Source: Thermasporomyces composti
GTDB taxonomy: Bacteria > Actinomycetota > Actinomycetes > Propionibacteriales > Actinopolymorphaceae
Assembly: GCF_003386795.1 (NCBI RefSeq)
Contig: NZ_QTUC01000001.1
Coordinates: 1,178,001 to 1,242,000, forward strand
Direction of reading: 5' to 3'
Length of the DNA stretch: 64,000 bases
Both the position numbers and the translations under genes were made by a program. The notes under the pieces were generated by a model. That model saw only the letters and a list, made by a program, of their open reading frames with translations. It was not told where the DNA came from and ran no database searches. Positions 1,597 to 39,933 of the stretch are shown here, in pieces (position 1 is the stretch's first letter; each line of letters starts with the position of its first letter).

Positions 1597-2226
1597 ATGT
1601 CCGACACCACCGTGCCGTCGTCTCCGATCACCGTTCGCCGTGCCACGGCTCACGACCTCGATGAGGTGACCGCTGTCTTCGCGGCGGCGGTCTGGGACGA
1701 GGCGGTCGCGGCGTGGATGCTGCCCGATGAAGAGCGGAGGCGCGCGTGGGGTCACGCCACCGCCTTTCGGCGTTACCTGGGCGCTCAGATCGACGACGGT
1801 GCGCTCGTCGTCGCCGGTGGGGCACAGATCGCCGGCGTCTCCGTCTGGTCCCGCGTCGACGGATCGGACCCCGACGACGATCAGGGCGAGCTGATGACGA
1901 CCGTCCGGACGATCTACGGACCCTACGTCGATCGTTTCGTCACGGTGATGACGGCGACGGCCCACGCCCACCCGTCCGAGTACCCCTACCTCTACCTCGC
2001 GCAGATGGCGGTCTTACCGAGGCATCGCGGTCGTGGGCTGGGAAGCGCGATGCTGCGCCACGGTCTCCGGACCGCGGACGACGACGGCCTCGCCACCTAC
2101 CTCGAGGCGAGTACGACTCGCAACCGCGCGCTCTACGCCCGCCACGGGTTCGTCGACTACGGTCCCCCGATCCGGCTGCCCGACAACGGGCCCAGCCTGC
2201 AACCCATGCTGCGCGAGCCAGCCTGA
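1597..2226 (+). CDS. GNAT family N-acetyltransferase
   Basis: A 209-residue protein starting at ATG 1597, with GGGAGA six bases upstream. It spans the whole GNAT fold. The acetyl-CoA pyrophosphate loop is R-H-R-G-R-G-L-G-S-A near residues 145-155, followed by the C-terminal Y-L-E-A-S and A-L-Y-A-R-H-G-F motifs (beta5/alpha5). GNATs move an acetyl group from acetyl-CoA to an amine; the acceptor cannot be told from sequence. It is likely cytoplasmic, with no signal or membrane segment. It stands alone between the broken glycosidase and the LCP gene. Earlier in-frame starts from 1498 lack a ribosome site and would add a non-conserved extension. Confidence 0.85.
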   Translation: MSDTTVPSSPITVRRATAHDLDEVTAVFAAAVWDEAVAAWMLPDEERRRAWGHATAFRRYLGAQIDDGALVVAGGAQIAGVSVWSRVDGSDPDDDQGELMTTVRTIYGPYVDRFVTVMTATAHAHPSEYPYLYLAQMAVLPRHRGRGLGSAMLRHGLRTADDDGLATYLEASTTRNRALYARHGFVDYGPPIRLPDNGPSLQPMLREPA

Positions 2227-2326
2227 GTCGCGGCAGCCCGGATGCGCCAGCCAATCATCCACACTTTTCGGCGAACTGGTCCTTGGATACCTGAACCGTC
2301 GATATGGGTGTGGTCAGACGCCCACG

Positions 2327-3796
2327 ATGGTTGGCATGCCGGAGCCACGCGAAGACGAGCAGATTTCGTCGCACGAGCCCTCCACCAGTCGGTCAGCCAG
2401 CGCATCACCAGCGAGAATCTTCGGCCGGGCGCTGGTTCTGACAGTCGTTGGCGGACTCGTTCCCGGCCTTGGCCTGATCAAGGCAGGTCGACGCAAGGTC
2501 GGATTGACAGTGCTCGCCCTCTTCGCGCTCCTCGTCGGCGCTGCCGTCTACGCCGTCATAGCGGAGCGACGGACGTTGCTGCACTGGGCTGTCCAGCCCA
2601 AGGCGTTGCGGCTCGCCGCGATCATCCTCCCCGCCTTGGCCGTCGCGTGGGCGGTCGTCATCCTCGCGACCTATCGGTCGCTGCGACCCAGCACCGCAAG
2701 GGCATGGCAACGGCTTGTCGGTGTCGGCGCGGTCCTCGCCTTGATCGGCGTCGTCGCGGCCCCGCTGAGCGTGGCGAGCCGATACGCCATGGTCCAGAAG
2801 GACATGGTCGAGCACATCTTCGCCAAGAAGGAGAGCAAGAGCGCGACCAGACCGACCAAGGTGACCGTCGAAGACCCGTGGGCAGGTCAGGATCGTGTCA
2901 ACGTCCTGCTGCTCGGCGGTGACGGTGGTCACGACCGAATCGGCATTCGACCCGACAGCATCATCACCGCCAGCATCGACACCCGCACCGGCGACACGGT
3001 GCTGTTCAGCCTGCCGCGCAACCTGCGCAAGATCCCGTTCCCCAAGGACTCCGTGCTCGCCGACGCCTACCCCAACGGCATCTACGCGGGACCCGGTGAC
3101 CAGCTGGAGTGGATGCTGAACTCGATCTACGAGAACGTCCCCGACCAGCATCCTGACCTGCTCGACAGCGACAACCCGGGCGCCGACGCGACCAAGCTCG
3201 CGGTGAGCGGTGCCCTCGGGTTGCGCATCGACTACTACGTCCTGGTCAATCTCAAGGCGTTCGAGCAGCTCATCGACGCCTTCGGCGGCATCACCGTCAA
3301 CGTGAACTACCCGGTGCCCAAGGGTGGCAGCGAGGAGGAGGGGCTCAAGCCAGGAGGCTGGATCCAGCCGGGGCCCAACCAGCACCTCGACGGCTTCGAC
3401 GCGCTGTGGTTCGCGCGTGGACGGTGGGGCCTCGACGACTACCAACGGATGCTGCGCCAGCGCTGCGTCATCAAGGCGATCATCGACCAGGCCGACCCCA
3501 TCAAGGTGCTCACCCGGTTCGAGGCGATCGCCAAGTCCTCCAAGGACCTGGTCTTCACCGACATCCCACAGTCGATGCTGCCGGCGTTCGTCGACCTGTC
3601 GCTGAAGGTGAAGCGAGCGAAGGTCACGAGCGTCGCCTTCACCAACAAGATCATCTCTCCGTGGGAGCCGAACTACGACGAGATTCACGCCATGGTCCAA
3701 GAGGGCCTGAGGAAGAGCGCGAACGCCTCCTCCTCGTCCTCCTCCATCACCGACTCCCTCGAGGATGCCTGCGCCTACCGACCGCGTCGCCCGTGA
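2327..3796 (+). CDS. LytR-CpsA-Psr (LCP) family cell-wall ligase with extra N-terminal membrane segments
   Basis: LCP enzymes transfer lipid-linked glycopolymers such as teichoic acids, arabinogalactan or capsule onto peptidoglycan outside the membrane. The 489-residue product has an N-terminal region of about 190 residues with four hydrophobic stretches, where the usual LCP protein has one. The LCP domain follows: V-N-V-L-L-L-G-G-D, R-P-D-S-I-I, S-L-P-R-N-L and later R-Q-R-C-V-I, carrying the conserved Asp/Arg residues of the fold. The C-terminus is Ser-rich. ATG 2327 was chosen as the first Met giving a sensible N-terminus; no good ribosome site is visible, and ATG 2336 is an alternative. 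It could serve the polysaccharide made by the island at 44-60 kb, but that is only inference. Confidence 0.85.
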   Translation: MVGMPEPREDEQISSHEPSTSRSASASPARIFGRALVLTVVGGLVPGLGLIKAGRRKVGLTVLALFALLVGAAVYAVIAERRTLLHWAVQPKALRLAAIILPALAVAWAVVILATYRSLRPSTARAWQRLVGVGAVLALIGVVAAPLSVASRYAMVQKDMVEHIFAKKESKSATRPTKVTVEDPWAGQDRVNVLLLGGDGGHDRIGIRPDSIITASIDTRTGDTVLFSLPRNLRKIPFPKDSVLADAYPNGIYAGPGDQLEWMLNSIYENVPDQHPDLLDSDNPGADATKLAVSGALGLRIDYYVLVNLKAFEQLIDAFGGITVNVNYPVPKGGSEEEGLKPGGWIQPGPNQHLDGFDALWFARGRWGLDDYQRMLRQRCVIKAIIDQADPIKVLTRFEAIAKSSKDLVFTDIPQSMLPAFVDLSLKVKRAKVTSVAFTNKIISPWEPNYDEIHAMVQEGLRKSANASSSSSSITDSLEDACAYRPRRP

Positions 3797-35726: not shown

Positions 35727-36320
35727 CTACGGCCGCACCTCACCGCGGGTGCGCACAAGCTGGCCACCCAAGGGCGCCAGACCGAGTCCCTCCCACCTGC
35801 CGTAGCGGGGGTTGACTTCGACGCCGACCTCACGGGCGGTCTTGGCCACTTCCGCGCGAAGCCTCAGATCGACCTCCTGCTGATCCGCGACACTAGCCGG
35901 TCGCCTGCCCAGCAGCTTGACGGCGAGCTCGTCGGAATACGCGAGGAACCGCGCGTACTCGTCGATCAGCCCACGGGGGATCTGGCGCTGTTGCTGACGG
36001 AGCTCACGCTTCTCCCGGTCGATGTCGGCCTGGGTGACTCGGACGCCCAAGCGCTCCCCGGTCGCGGCAGCGAGCTTGAAGTCGATCATGACCCGGAGCA
36101 GGTTGCGCTGGGACTCGCCGACCACGGAGGTGTCGTTCGGGTTCGCCCCGACGAGCTCCAGGCCCTCCCTGACCTGCTCCTGGAGGAAGCTGACCGGGAT
36201 CGTCTCGTCGCCCACCCGAGCCGCGACGCTTGGGTCGTTCAGCGAGCCGCAGCCGGTCAGTCCGAGTCCGGCGACGAGGGCTAGTGCGGCGAACCGACGA
36301 GTGAGCCTCTGACCGACCAC
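35727..36320 (-). CDS. SurA N-terminal-domain lipoprotein
   Basis: A 197-residue secreted lipoprotein. The signal peptide ends with lipobox L-T-G-C near residue 25. Then V-G-D-E-T-I-P-V-S-F-L-Q-E-Q-V begins a SurA-N chaperone-like helical domain with V-T-Q-A-D-I-D-R-E. No PPIase domain follows, so it is probably a chaperone or periplasmic-space binding protein. GTG 36320 has GAGGAG upstream; the longer frame to 36479 is not supported. Same strand as mazG, 69 bases upstream of it. Confidence 0.85.
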   Translation of the reverse strand: MVGQRLTRRFAALALVAGLGLTGCGSLNDPSVAARVGDETIPVSFLQEQVREGLELVGANPNDTSVVGESQRNLLRVMIDFKLAAATGERLGVRVTQADIDREKRELRQQQRQIPRGLIDEYARFLAYSDELAVKLLGRRPASVADQQEVDLRLRAEVAKTAREVGVEVNPRYGRWEGLGLAPLGGQLVRTRGEVRP

Positions 36321-36482
36321 GGGACTCCTCTTGTTGTTCTCGTACGTCGTGGTTGTTCGTGGACGTGGGCGCCTTCCAGACGACCCGATCGTACGCAGCG
36401 CCCCGACGCCGGCGTTCGCCGGGCCAGGGTCCCCGAGCTCGAGATCACCGCAGCTCTCCGGGGTCGGGATCGCGGGCACCGA

Positions 36483-36854
36483 TCACTCGGAACGGGAGCG
36501 CCGGCTGGGGTGGACGGGGGTCGGAGGGTCGGGCGCGAGCGAGCCGTCGGGAGCGATGTGCTGGAAGATCTGGTCGACGAGCGTGAGGACGTGCGGGTCC
36601 TCGACGGCGTAGATGTGCCGCCGACCCACCCGGCGTGAGGTGACCAGCCCGGCGAGCCGGAGCTTGGCGAGGTGCTGGCTGACGGCTGCCACGGTGGCAC
36701 CGGTGTACTCGGCGAGCGTGCCGACGTCGTACTCCCCACGCGCGAGTAGCCAGACCAGGTGGAGTCGGGTGGGCGCGGAGAGCAGGTCGAAGGTTTCGGC
36801 GGCGGCCTTCAGCTGCGGTCCAGTGGGCCCGTCGACGCGAGGATCGGTGCTCAT
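36483..36854 (-). CDS. ArsR/SmtB family metal-sensing repressor (alpha5 type)
   Basis: A 123-residue winged-helix repressor. The HTH is T-G-A-T-V-A-A-V-S-Q-H-L-A-K-L and the wing is S-R-R-V-G-R-R-H-I-Y. In the C-terminal helix, D-P-H-V-L-T-L-V-D-Q-I-F-Q-H shows D-x-H-x10-H, the alpha5 metal site of SmtB, CzrA and NmtR (Zn, Co or Ni sensors). The fourth ligand is not obvious. Divergent from the GDT1 gene, whose promoter overlaps a candidate operator, so it likely controls both. Confidence 0.88.
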   Translation of the reverse strand: MSTDPRVDGPTGPQLKAAAETFDLLSAPTRLHLVWLLARGEYDVGTLAEYTGATVAAVSQHLAKLRLAGLVTSRRVGRRHIYAVEDPHVLTLVDQIFQHIAPDGSLAPDPPTPVHPSRRSRSE

Positions 36855-36923
36855 GTCCCGTCCGATTGTTCCCCACGGGTCCGCCTGGCTGACGGTGAGG
36901 GTGTGGCGAAGCTCACATTCTTC

Positions 36924-36943
36924 TATTACTTGCGCAACTATTT
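36924..36943. promoter_or_regulatory. Candidate ArsR operator
   Basis: An imperfect 20-base palindrome centred on TTGCGCAA with AT-rich flanks, in an otherwise GC-rich region. It lies between the ArsR start and the TTGACA box of the GDT1 transcript, overlapping the latter by two bases. Suited to repress that promoter. Confidence 0.4.
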
Positions 36944-36971
36944 GACAATCAGCGTCAGCGCCGGGCAGGCT
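36942..36971 (+). promoter_or_regulatory. Promoter of the GDT1 riboswitch transcript
   Basis: TTGACA (36942-36947) and CAGGCT (36966-36971) are separated by 18 bases. The likely start is near 36978, just before the riboswitch. Confidence 0.5.
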
Positions 36972-36977
36972 GGACCG

Positions 36978-37085
36978 CGCGGAGGGGAGTAGCCCCCAAC
37001 GCCGTGGTCGACACGCTGGCGCTGACCCGCGCCCGGCCCGGCGGCCTACGCGACGCGGAGGCGGGCGAGACCTTCGACCCAGGCG
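36978..37085 (+). promoter_or_regulatory. yybP-ykoY manganese riboswitch
   Basis: The two conserved metal-docking loops are visible: GGGGAGTAGC at 36984-36993 and GCGAGACCTTCG at 37065-37076, separated by a variable helical arm. Both match the yybP-ykoY consensus as I remember it. This class binds Mn2+ and commonly controls UPF0016/GDT1-type exporters, which is the gene that follows. An ORF reading through this element (from 37004) is not the real protein start. Confidence 0.8.
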
Positions 37086-37106
37086 GCACGCCGGGTCGAG
37101 GGCACG

Positions 37107-37128
37107 CCTCGATCCGGCCGGATCGAGG
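37107..37128 (+). promoter_or_regulatory. SD-sequestering hairpin (riboswitch expression platform)
   Basis: A 22-base perfect palindrome whose 3' arm ends in GAGG, the core of the GAGGA ribosome site for GTG 37139. When folded it hides the ribosome site, so Mn2+ binding to the upstream aptamer could open it and turn translation on. Confidence 0.55.
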
Positions 37129-37138
37129 AACGGACGAC

Positions 37139-37726
37139 GTGGACGCACTCACCACGAGCTTTCTGGTCAGCTTCGGCGTCATCTTCGTCGCCGAGCTCGG
37201 CGACAAGTCCCAGCTCATGGCGATCACCTTCGCCAGCCGCTACAACGCCACCCAGGTGCTGGTCGGCATCAGCCTCGCCACCGCCGTGGTGCACGCCCTC
37301 TCGGTGGGCCTGGGCTACGGCCTCGGCGCCAACCTCCCCACGGCCTGGGTGTCCTTGGCGGCAGCCCTCGCCTTCGTCGGGTTCGGCATCTGGACAGTGC
37401 GCGGCGACAGCCTGTCGGAGACCGAGAAGCAACGGGCACAGCGAAGCGGGCGAGCCGCGATCATCGCCGTCACGGTGGCCTTCTTCCTCGCCGAGCTCGG
37501 CGACAAGACCATGCTCGCCACCGTCACCCTGGCCACTCACCACGAGTCCTTCGGCACCTGGTTCGGCTCGACGCTGGGCATGGTCGCCGCCGACGCGGTC
37601 GCCATCCTCGTCGGACACCAGCTCGGCAAGCGGCTCCCAGAGCGGGCCGTCCGGTACGGCGCCGCCGCGCTCTTCGTCGTCATCGGTCTGTGGCTGCTGG
37701 CGGACGCCGTTCCCCAGCTGGTCTGA
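37139..37726 (+). CDS. TMEM165/GDT1 family (UPF0016) manganese exporter
   Basis: A 195-residue membrane protein with six TM helices in two repeats. Each repeat carries the family motif E-x-G-D-K (A-E-L-G-D-K-S near residue 19, A-E-L-G-D-K-T near 122), which forms the cation site. Members export Mn2+ (and Ca2+ in eukaryotes). GTG 37139 was chosen because GAGGA lies nine bases upstream and everything 5' of it is the riboswitch. Regulated by the Mn riboswitch and probably by the divergent ArsR protein. Confidence 0.9.
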   Translation: MDALTTSFLVSFGVIFVAELGDKSQLMAITFASRYNATQVLVGISLATAVVHALSVGLGYGLGANLPTAWVSLAAALAFVGFGIWTVRGDSLSETEKQRAQRSGRAAIIAVTVAFFLAELGDKTMLATVTLATHHESFGTWFGSTLGMVAADAVAILVGHQLGKRLPERAVRYGAAALFVVIGLWLLADAVPQLV

Positions 37727-38824: not shown

Positions 38825-39748
38825 CTACCTGGCCGGGATCGGGGCCGACGTGGTGGACGTGGGGAACGGCGTCGGTGTCCGCTCAGGCCACGGGATCGGC
38901 ACCGGCGGCACTGGCCTCGACGTCGGCCTGGACGTCGGACTCGGCGTCGGCTCCGGTGTGGGGCTCGGCGCCGGGTCGGTGGTCGGCGCCGGGTCGGTGG
39001 TCGGCGCCGGGTCGGTGGTCGGCTCGGGTGAGGGCTCGCTCGTCGGCCCTGGTTCTGTGGTGGGCTCCGGCGTCGGCTCGGTCGTGGGTGTCGGCGTCGG
39101 CTCGGTCGTGGGTGTCGGCGTCGGCTCGGTCGTGGGTGTCGGCGTCGGCTCGGTCGTGGGTGTCGGCGTCGGCGAGGGCTCGAGCGTGGGATCACTCGTC
39201 GGCTCGGAGTCCGAGGTCGGTGACGGCTCCGGTCCGCGCGGCGACGGGTCGGCCGGCGACGGTGTCGGCTCACCCGAAGACTGACCGGAGTGCCACGGCG
39301 ACCCAGCAGCTCGTGCCGTCGTGGCGGCTGGCCTCGCCGCGTGGACGAGCGGCGACGGGACCGGCGACGTGGGCGCCAGGATCGGCGAGCCTTTGCTCAC
39401 CGGCGCGTCAGCGGACGGAGCGCGGGAGCCACCAACCCGCTGCGTGTCGCGCTCGGACGGCAGCGTGAAGCCCCGCGACAGGCTCTGCGCCACCGTCGGC
39501 GGCCCCGAGGCCACCGGGCCGCCCTCGTTCGGCCCGAAGACCACCCAGCCGACGCCGGCGGCGGTGCTCAGTCCGACGAGGCATCCGACCGTGACAGCGA
39601 TGGGAACGGCTCGCTGCTCCATCCAGGTCCAGGCTGAGCTGACCCGGCCCTCCCCCTGGGGGCGTTCACCCCGGTGGCGGCCGCGTTGGTCTCGACGGCT
39701 CCCCACGGCGGGCAGGCGTACGGTCTCCTCCGACATCTCGGGCTTCAT
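38825..39748 (-). CDS. Single-pass membrane protein with Pro/Thr repeat tail
   Basis: A 307-residue protein. A short charged cytoplasmic N-terminus (1-45) precedes one TM helix (about 48-70) and a long outer part. From about residue 165 to the end it is almost only Pro, Thr, Ser, Glu and Ala, with T-E-P-T-P-T-P-T repeated four times and T-T-D-P-A-P three times. Such stalks are typically O-mannosylated in actinomycetes and span the cell wall. No enzymatic domain is seen. ATG 39748 has GGGGAGGG upstream. Confidence 0.75.
   Translation of the reverse strand: MKPEMSEETVRLPAVGSRRDQRGRHRGERPQGEGRVSSAWTWMEQRAVPIAVTVGCLVGLSTAAGVGWVVFGPNEGGPVASGPPTVAQSLSRGFTLPSERDTQRVGGSRAPSADAPVSKGSPILAPTSPVPSPLVHAARPAATTARAAGSPWHSGQSSGEPTPSPADPSPRGPEPSPTSDSEPTSDPTLEPSPTPTPTTEPTPTPTTEPTPTPTTEPTPTPTTEPTPEPTTEPGPTSEPSPEPTTDPAPTTDPAPTTDPAPSPTPEPTPSPTSRPTSRPVPPVPIPWPERTPTPFPTSTTSAPIPAR
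38970..39023. repeat. Three 18-bp tandem repeats (six-residue units)
   Basis: Three copies of the unit GCCGGGTCGGTGGTCGGC within the Pro/Thr-repeat gene. Coding minisatellite, likely to vary in copy number. Confidence 0.85.
39071..39166. repeat. Four perfect 24-bp tandem repeats (eight-residue units)
   Basis: Four identical 24-base units encode the T-E-P-T-P-T-P-T repeat. Identity at the base level suggests recent duplication by slippage or unequal recombination. Confidence 0.9.
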
Positions 39749-39933
39749 CGGCCCTCCCCGGCTATCGCGTCGACCTCCTGCGATGCCCCCGTACTGGCTC
39801 AGCCGACGCAAACCCTAGCTGATTGCCTTTGCGGGCCAGACGGTCACGATCCGTAGCAATGGGGCGGGAAGTCTCGCGAAATGATCACGGACAGTGAGTG
39901 AGGCACGGGATACAGCGGGCGAAGGCCAGGCGA

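Follow-up and report, generated by a model that had tools for sequence, protein, structure and literature searches.

A predicted two-sensor switch, an ArsR-family regulator and a yybP-ykoY-type Mn2+ riboswitch, upstream of a GDT1-type exporter gene in Thermasporomyces composti

Background

Double control of a manganese exporter by a transcription factor and a riboswitch is already known from E. coli, where both MntR and a translational Mn riboswitch are reported to act on mntP (PMC11647493). The T. composti locus analyzed here resembles mntP in this pairing on one putative Mn exporter gene; however, MntR is described as an activator, whereas the protein partner in our case is a divergently encoded, presumed repressor of the ArsR family. 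With the leader of E. coli alx, reported as a Mn-responsive riboswitch, the present leader shares the L1 motif GGGGAGUA, the GAGACC strand, helices P1.1 and P1.2, a P3 with a 7-nt bulge, an exporter gene downstream and the lack of P2. Set against the yybP-ykoY family and alx, it is distinguished by the absence of a detectable score with the family model RF00080 and by a four-segment expression platform that ends on a Shine-Dalgarno (SD) hairpin. Leaders of this riboswitch family have been annotated in another actinobacterium, C. glutamicum (including that of cg2157 terC), with an older Rfam release (PMC3890552); as far as described there, they match RF00080 at 43-50 bits, in contrast to our leader.

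On the protein side, SmtB, NmtR and CzrA have the fold and the alpha5 D-x-H-x10-H arrangement in common with the regulator described here, which differs from them in having Pro at the fourth ligand place with an invariant Asp one residue on, and in belonging to a branch that adjoins genes for GDT1 or CtpH/I-like ATPases. The Mn-sensing transcription factors named in a review of 2022 on Mn regulation in bacteria belong to the DtxR and Fur families (PMC9334652), and its available text does not contain the word ArsR. Neither a Mn-sensing ArsR nor an ArsR combined with a Mn-riboswitch exporter was found in the open PMC literature searched, although either may of course have been published elsewhere, and PMC3766115 and PMC4531530 offered nothing against either absence. 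The new elements of the present system are the ArsR partner, a set of riboswitches missed by Rfam and a conserved SD-hairpin platform.

Results and Discussion

Organization of the locus

The window, as we call the whole 64,000-nt stretch of DNA that was analyzed, comes from a host genome of 4.37 Mb assembled as a single contig. Two divergent genes define the locus:

36483..36854, minus strand: gene for an ArsR/SmtB-family repressor of 123 aa, divergent from the exporter (NF033788, PF01022)
37139..37726, plus strand: gene for a GDT1/UPF0016-family divalent cation exporter of 195 aa, GTG start (PF01169)

In profile searches the ArsR protein scored 83.2 bits with the metalloregulator model NF033788 (cut-off 55) and 47.7 bits with PF01022. 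The nearest folds to its structure model, as ranked by Foldseek, are SqrR, SmtB and CzrA, so that both the wHTH fold and the subfamily score place it among ArsR/SmtB metalloregulators. The exporter matched PF01169 in two stretches (149.3 bits) and carries the motifs ELGDKS and ELGDKT, in agreement with the GDT1/UPF0016 consensus of one or two E-x-G-D-[KR]-[ST] motifs (PMC7380456); its closest named relatives, among the matches listed, are from Actinopolymorpha. The two genes are separated by a TTGCGCAA palindrome, a -35 element TTGACA and a leader of ~160 nt, an arrangement which supports the earlier view that a single exporter gene stands behind both an ArsR operator and a riboswitch leader.

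A conserved aptamer without P2

The following elements were assigned to the leader:

36980..37076, plus strand: predicted yybP-ykoY-type Mn2+ riboswitch aptamer, a three-way junction without P2 (covariance model R1, covariation)
within 36980..37076, plus strand: aptamer helices P1.1 (CGGAGG/CCTTCG), P1.2 (GCCC/GGGC), P3 and P4
36984..36992, plus strand: aptamer loop L1, GGGGAGTAG, with GAGA
37011..37017, plus strand: 7-nt L3, ACACGCT, in P3

Helices and loops are named after PMC6754395; in that nomenclature P1.1 denotes the switch helix, and GAGACC opens the 3' strand of L1/P1.1 there as it does here, the same sequence being present in the X. oryzae construct of that paper. At least 445 relatives of the GDT1 protein were found, and 80 loci were kept for comparison of the leaders. 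Within 350 nt upstream of the GDT1 homologue, GGGAGTAG is present in 78 of the 80 listed loci, the full GGGGAGTAGC in 73 and GAGACC in 79. Omission of L073 and L076 (without GGGAGTAG) and of the truncated L020 left 77 loci, which together with the window make 78 leaders; all 78, chosen for GGGAGTAG, contain GGGGAGTAG and CGAGACC, and hence an L1 with GGGGAGUAG and a GAGACC 3' strand closing on P1.1.

When 41 aptamers were folded with RNAalifold, no structure being supplied, P1.1, P1.2, P3 with its 7-nt bulge, a distal P3 hairpin and P4 were recovered, with two-sided changes at 16 of the 31 predicted pairs. P1.2, for example, appears as GCCC/GGGC, GCTC/GAGC or GTCC/GGAC in different leaders. 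The structure is thus conserved far beyond chance. The L3 bulge is likewise conserved as ACANRCT (consensus ACAUACU in both R1 and RF00080) and contains the putative Mn-contacting A, which we place by alignment to A41 of L. lactis. The spacer between L1 and L3 is 15 nt in most of the parsable leaders (36-37 nt in two) and at this length is too short to hold P2, so that the four-way junction with P2 is missing. The loss of P2 was dismissed as a novelty, the alx sequence being likewise too short for it; P2 is therefore not obligatory.

Failure of the Rfam model and detection by R1

The search with RF00080 gave no match in the window, whether at the gathering score, at E<=1 or at E<=10, nor in the whole genome, and the 20 related GDT1 loci (out of 80) that were submitted to it gave none either. 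The sequence-only reading had called the leader a yybP-ykoY riboswitch and had named precisely such a missing covariance-model hit as grounds for abandoning the assignment. The expected hit failed to appear, but the assignment stood, and we regard the result as a false negative: a cmscan with all of Rfam (Rfam 15) also gave no RF00080 match at E<=1 in the 421-base stretch holding the alx leader (L169 874-1001, E. coli K-12), so that this search is uninformative on homology. The argument that no Rfam match means no riboswitch was rejected on the same ground, as R1 does find alx. In the printed RF00080 consensus the L1 strand is unpaired and the GAGACC/P1.1 3' strand is absent, which may be the reason why alx escapes detection.

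R1 is a covariance model trained exclusively on actinobacterial GDT1 leaders, with no proteobacterial sequence among them. It scores the window aptamer, a member of the training set, at 80.7 bits, and it matches E. coli K-12 alx in register with 37.4 bits (E 1.6e-9), which establishes homology to a literature-reported Mn riboswitch outside the training set. Together with the covariation, this match argues for the leader being a yybP-ykoY riboswitch. R1 matched at E<=0.001 in 136 of 246 genomes of the class, vs 10 of the same genomes with an RF00080 match at E<=0.01 and none above the cut-off. If the assignment is true, the current Rfam model overlooks Mn riboswitches in the majority of the class genomes sampled, and re-annotation as Mn genes would follow for numerous genes of the GDT1, TerC and P-type ATPase kinds.

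To judge from 49 such loci typed by their downstream gene (50 chosen for diversity rather than at random, less the window), the genes following R1 matches are mostly Mn-exporter-like, their names reflecting sequence resemblance except for the window-type GDT1 and the P-type ATPase. They comprise 16 window-type GDT1, 5 of a second GDT1 group, 16 TerC-like, 2 Na/Ca-exchanger-like, 1 MntP-like, 1 P-type ATPase, 3 of unknown type (two alike, one alone) and 5 unmatched.

It is possible in principle that the leader retains the yybP-ykoY fold and has lost Mn2+ sensing or senses another cation, as the failure of RF00080 and the missing P2 might suggest. We consider this very improbable, given that L1, the GAGA strand and the ACANRCT bulge are all conserved, that the associated downstream genes are exporter-like, and that alx, also devoid of P2, is described as Mn-responsive.

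Several minor observations were made with R1. TerC-linked leaders (L146, L157, L151, L140, L166 and others) have GGGGAGUA[U/C] where GDT1 leaders have GGGGAGUAG, and on this criterion they form a second actinobacterial aptamer subtype. Two loci, L155 and L152, have R1 matches of 50.6 and 45.1 bits in front of genes for mutually related, unnamed proteins of ~290 aa. A match of 22.3 bits inside the coding strand of the L183 ATPase was taken as chance.

Expression platform

Downstream of the aptamer, four segments capable of alternative pairing lead to the ribosome-binding site:

37071..37101, plus strand: anti-aptamer hairpin S1:S2, CCTTCGACCC (S1, 37071-37080) with GCCGGGTCGAGG (S2, 37090-37101), from the window fold and permutation
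37107..37128, plus strand: SD-sequestering hairpin S3:S4, a perfect 22-nt palindrome CCTCGATCCGG/CCGGATCGAGG (S3, 37107-37117; S4, 37118-37128, with the SD)
37125..37129, plus strand: Shine-Dalgarno sequence GAGGA, 9 nt before the GTG

The arms of S3:S4 are 100% complementary, leave no loop and cover 4 of the 5 SD bases. S1 includes the 3' strand of P1.1, which S1:S2 would capture. All of S1:S2, S2:S3 and S3:S4 are able to form, so that S2 and S3 have two partners each. In a pairing permutation over 47 non-redundant leaders (of 77 parsable, L074 being dropped), pairing with the segment of the same leader was favored over permuted partners with z of -4.0 (S1:S2), -3.5 (S2:S3) and -5.6 (S3:S4), none of 2000 permutations in each case reaching the observed value, vs z of +0.9, -1.1 and -0.2 for the three non-partner combinations. 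When the permutation was confined to taxonomic groups, S3:S4 was still significant (5 of 5000 reach the observed energy), whereas S2:S3 (485/5000) and S1:S2 (1624/5000) were not, and it is therefore the SD hairpin that is firmly supported. The existence of the 22-base palindrome over the ribosome site, pointed out earlier, is hereby confirmed, and its covariation argues for an SD-sequestering role.

In a fold of 43 whole leaders by RNAalifold, S2:S3 appears together with P1.1, which corresponds to the predicted ON state. When SD opening was modelled thermodynamically, in the presence and in the absence of the P1.1 3' strand, the 78 leaders did not stand apart from shuffles: the mean change was 0.046 vs 0.030, and a change above 0.2 was seen in 11.5% of leaders vs 10.4% of shuffles. 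The change in SD accessibility for the window itself was 0.28 vs 0.33 for window shuffles, a shift of at least equal size that is probably explained by pairing of CCTTCG itself with the SD. The interpretation that best fits these data is a putative relay in which Mn2+ would turn expression on. The control had originally been described as three-layered; this was an overcount, since the SD palindrome belongs to the riboswitch as its output arm, leaving two layers.

The candidate ArsR operator

The intergenic region contains, in addition, the following elements:

36925..36942, either strand: candidate ArsR operator palindrome ATTACTTGCGCAACTATT, with the core TTGCGCAA at 36930-36937
36942..36971, plus strand: GDT1 promoter by sequence, -35 TTGACA (36942-36947), 18 nt, -10-like CAGGCT (36966-36971)
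36920..36948, minus strand: candidate arsR promoter suggested by sequence, -35 TTGTCA (36943-36948), 17 nt, weak -10 TAGAAG (36920-36925)

The palindrome overlaps the divergent promoters: its core falls within the 17-nt spacer of the candidate arsR promoter, and it lies immediately upstream of the exporter -35. TTGCGCAA is accompanied by the -35 TTGACA in each of the 5 ArsR-linked leaders (window included), and both are absent from 73/73 leaders without a linked ArsR; among the 80 listed GDT1 loci, TTGCGCAA is found upstream of the leader in exactly the 4 ArsR-linked ones. Furthermore, TTGCGCAACTAT, identical to 36930-36941 of the window, is present at 6 distant ArsR promoters and TTACGCAACTAT at 3; these 9 are all the ATPase-linked promoters among 14 other ArsR homologue loci. 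Taken singly, the promoters of the homologues have operator scores (8-10 of 12) that overlap with those of shuffled sequences, and we give weight only to the shared 12-mer. The pattern ACTTGCGCAA is not enriched in its own genome (4 occurrences vs 11 for the reversed pattern), and no wider regulon is claimed for this reason. Overall, the co-occurrence and the distant promoters with TTGCGCAACTAT favor the original proposal that the promoter palindrome is the ArsR operator.

Many ArsR proteins are autorepressors, and 73 of the 78 riboswitch-GDT1 leaders have no ArsR at all; the regulator might accordingly control arsR only, the operator being shared by mere geometry and the exporter run by the riboswitch alone. 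This is unlikely in our judgment, as the operator ends on the exporter -35, the perfect TTGACA is confined to the 5 ArsR-linked leaders and the promoter looks rebuilt for repression.

The ArsR branch, its metal site and its neighbors

A divergent ArsR with a D-x-H-x10-H site had been recognized from the bare sequence, and the profile scores together with the conservation of the residues bear this out:

36558..36599, minus strand: alpha5 site D86-P-H88-x10-H99 (alignment, structure model)

D86, H88, H99, Pro102 and Asp103 are invariant in 10/10 aligned homologues. Relative to the tetrad D-x-H-x10-H-x2-[E/H], the first three ligands are thus present in all ten, and the fourth place is taken by Pro102, which presumably occupies the position of SmtB E120/NmtR H107; the invariant Asp103 follows it, at H99+4. 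In an AlphaFold model (five sequences, pLDDT 77.6) alpha5 comprises residues 87-100, which would place H99 near the helix end and Asp103 beyond the helix.

A divergent ArsR with 82-90% identity accompanies 4 of the 80 listed GDT1 loci, three from Actinopolymorpha and one from Allonocardiopsis opalescens. Homologues with ~60% identity are rare, being found in 8 of 394 genomes of the class at E<=1e-30 (own included) and in 8 of 98 genomes in the genus of G205. At the 14 other homologue loci the neighbor is a divergent CtpH/I-like P-type ATPase in 9 cases, a CDF in one (top NCBIfam match MntE with 286 bits, under the cut-off of 500) and an ABC permease in 2, the remaining 2 having no transporter of these types. 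The label CtpH/I-like is assigned from PMC3573892, where CtpH and CtpI are described as type-II P-type ATPases of unusual size that had not been characterised. The ArsR-linked ATPase of G205 (L183) has a paralogue (L182) that is 61% identical over 1415 aa; both have E1-E2 ATPase domains, and the paralogue carries a Mn riboswitch according to R1 (47.9 bits, L182 514-615). This pair suggests Mn as a substrate of an uncharacterised ATPase family. By gene context, two transporter families, GDT1 and CtpH/I-like ATPases, are associated both with the ArsR branch and with the predicted Mn riboswitch.

The identity of the inducing metal has to be weighed against these data. SmtB senses Zn and NmtR senses Ni/Co; both are the nearest solved relatives of our ArsR, and D-x-H-x10-H on alpha5, which it possesses, is the classical Zn/Co/Ni arrangement. 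An MRF gene, from a family linked to zinc starvation, also lies nearby in 3 of the 14 homologue loci (L083, L175, L177). The switch could therefore be an AND gate, with Zn, Co or Ni required for transcription and Mn2+ for translation, a reading to which we give somewhat less than an even chance. On the other hand, Mn by itself would be a poor inducer of an exporter that depends on two distinct metals, the neighbors of the subfamily are GDT1 (5 loci), CtpH/I-like ATPases (9/14) and one MntE-like CDF, and the 61%-identical ATPase paralogue in the same genome bears a Mn riboswitch. The assignment of Zn/Co/Ni to the ArsR, with Mn acting at translation only, was thus not established, the neighbors suggesting Mn export for both layers. 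The operator shared with ATPase-linked ArsRs, along with the riboswitch on an ATPase paralogue, indicates that the ArsR probably serves Mn export as well, its inducer probably being Mn too or another metal that these exporters transport.

Proposed mechanism

The most probable interpretation of the locus is a switch in which two sensors act on a single GDT1-type Mn2+ exporter, with the pump probably expelling manganese. The elements themselves, their conservation, the homology of the leader to alx, the strict co-occurrence of operator and ArsR and the covariation of the SD hairpin are observed; Mn2+ binding, the direction of switching, repression by ArsR and the nature of its inducer are what we infer. 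At the level of transcription, an ArsR dimer would bind the TTGCGCAA palindrome, inside the arsR promoter and abutting the exporter -35, and would repress both arsR and the exporter until the inducing metal occupies the alpha5 site. At the level of translation, control would pass to a P2-less Mn2+ aptamer of the yybP-ykoY family, resembling that of alx. In the absence of Mn2+ the P1.1 3' strand would pair downstream (S1:S2), leaving S3 free for S4 and the SD hidden; with Mn2+, L1 and L3 would dock and P1.1 would keep its 3' strand, so that the released S2 could take S3 and the SD would open.

A more tentative proposal, possible but rather doubtful at present, is that the regulator represents a new Mn2+-responsive branch of ArsR/SmtB proteins in actinobacteria, controlling Mn exporters of no fewer than two families (GDT1 and CtpH/I-like P-type ATPases) and added onto an older Mn riboswitch, with DPH-x10-H-IAPDG and the operator TTGCGCAA as its signature. 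The stacking of ArsR upon the existing riboswitch would then be placed in an Actinopolymorpha-like lineage, where a protein and an RNA would both read the same metal on behalf of a single exporter gene. If true, this would single out one ArsR-family protein as a possible Mn sensor open to testing, and an exporter under both an ArsR and a Mn riboswitch would make protein and RNA metal sensing comparable on a single gene.

Other genes in the neighborhood

Downstream of arsR is a lipoprotein-like gene (35727-36323, minus strand) with a weak match to the SurA N-terminal domain (PF13624, 22.8 bits, below cut-off). A 328-aa ORF at 38825-39811 (minus strand) has long Thr/Pro/Glu-rich tandem repeats (TPTPTTEP) and probably encodes an extracytoplasmic low-complexity protein. 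At L083, the ArsR homologue is followed (1869-3125) by a gene for an MRF-type GTPase, a ribosome-hibernation factor (NF047431, 528.9 bits vs cut-off 375).
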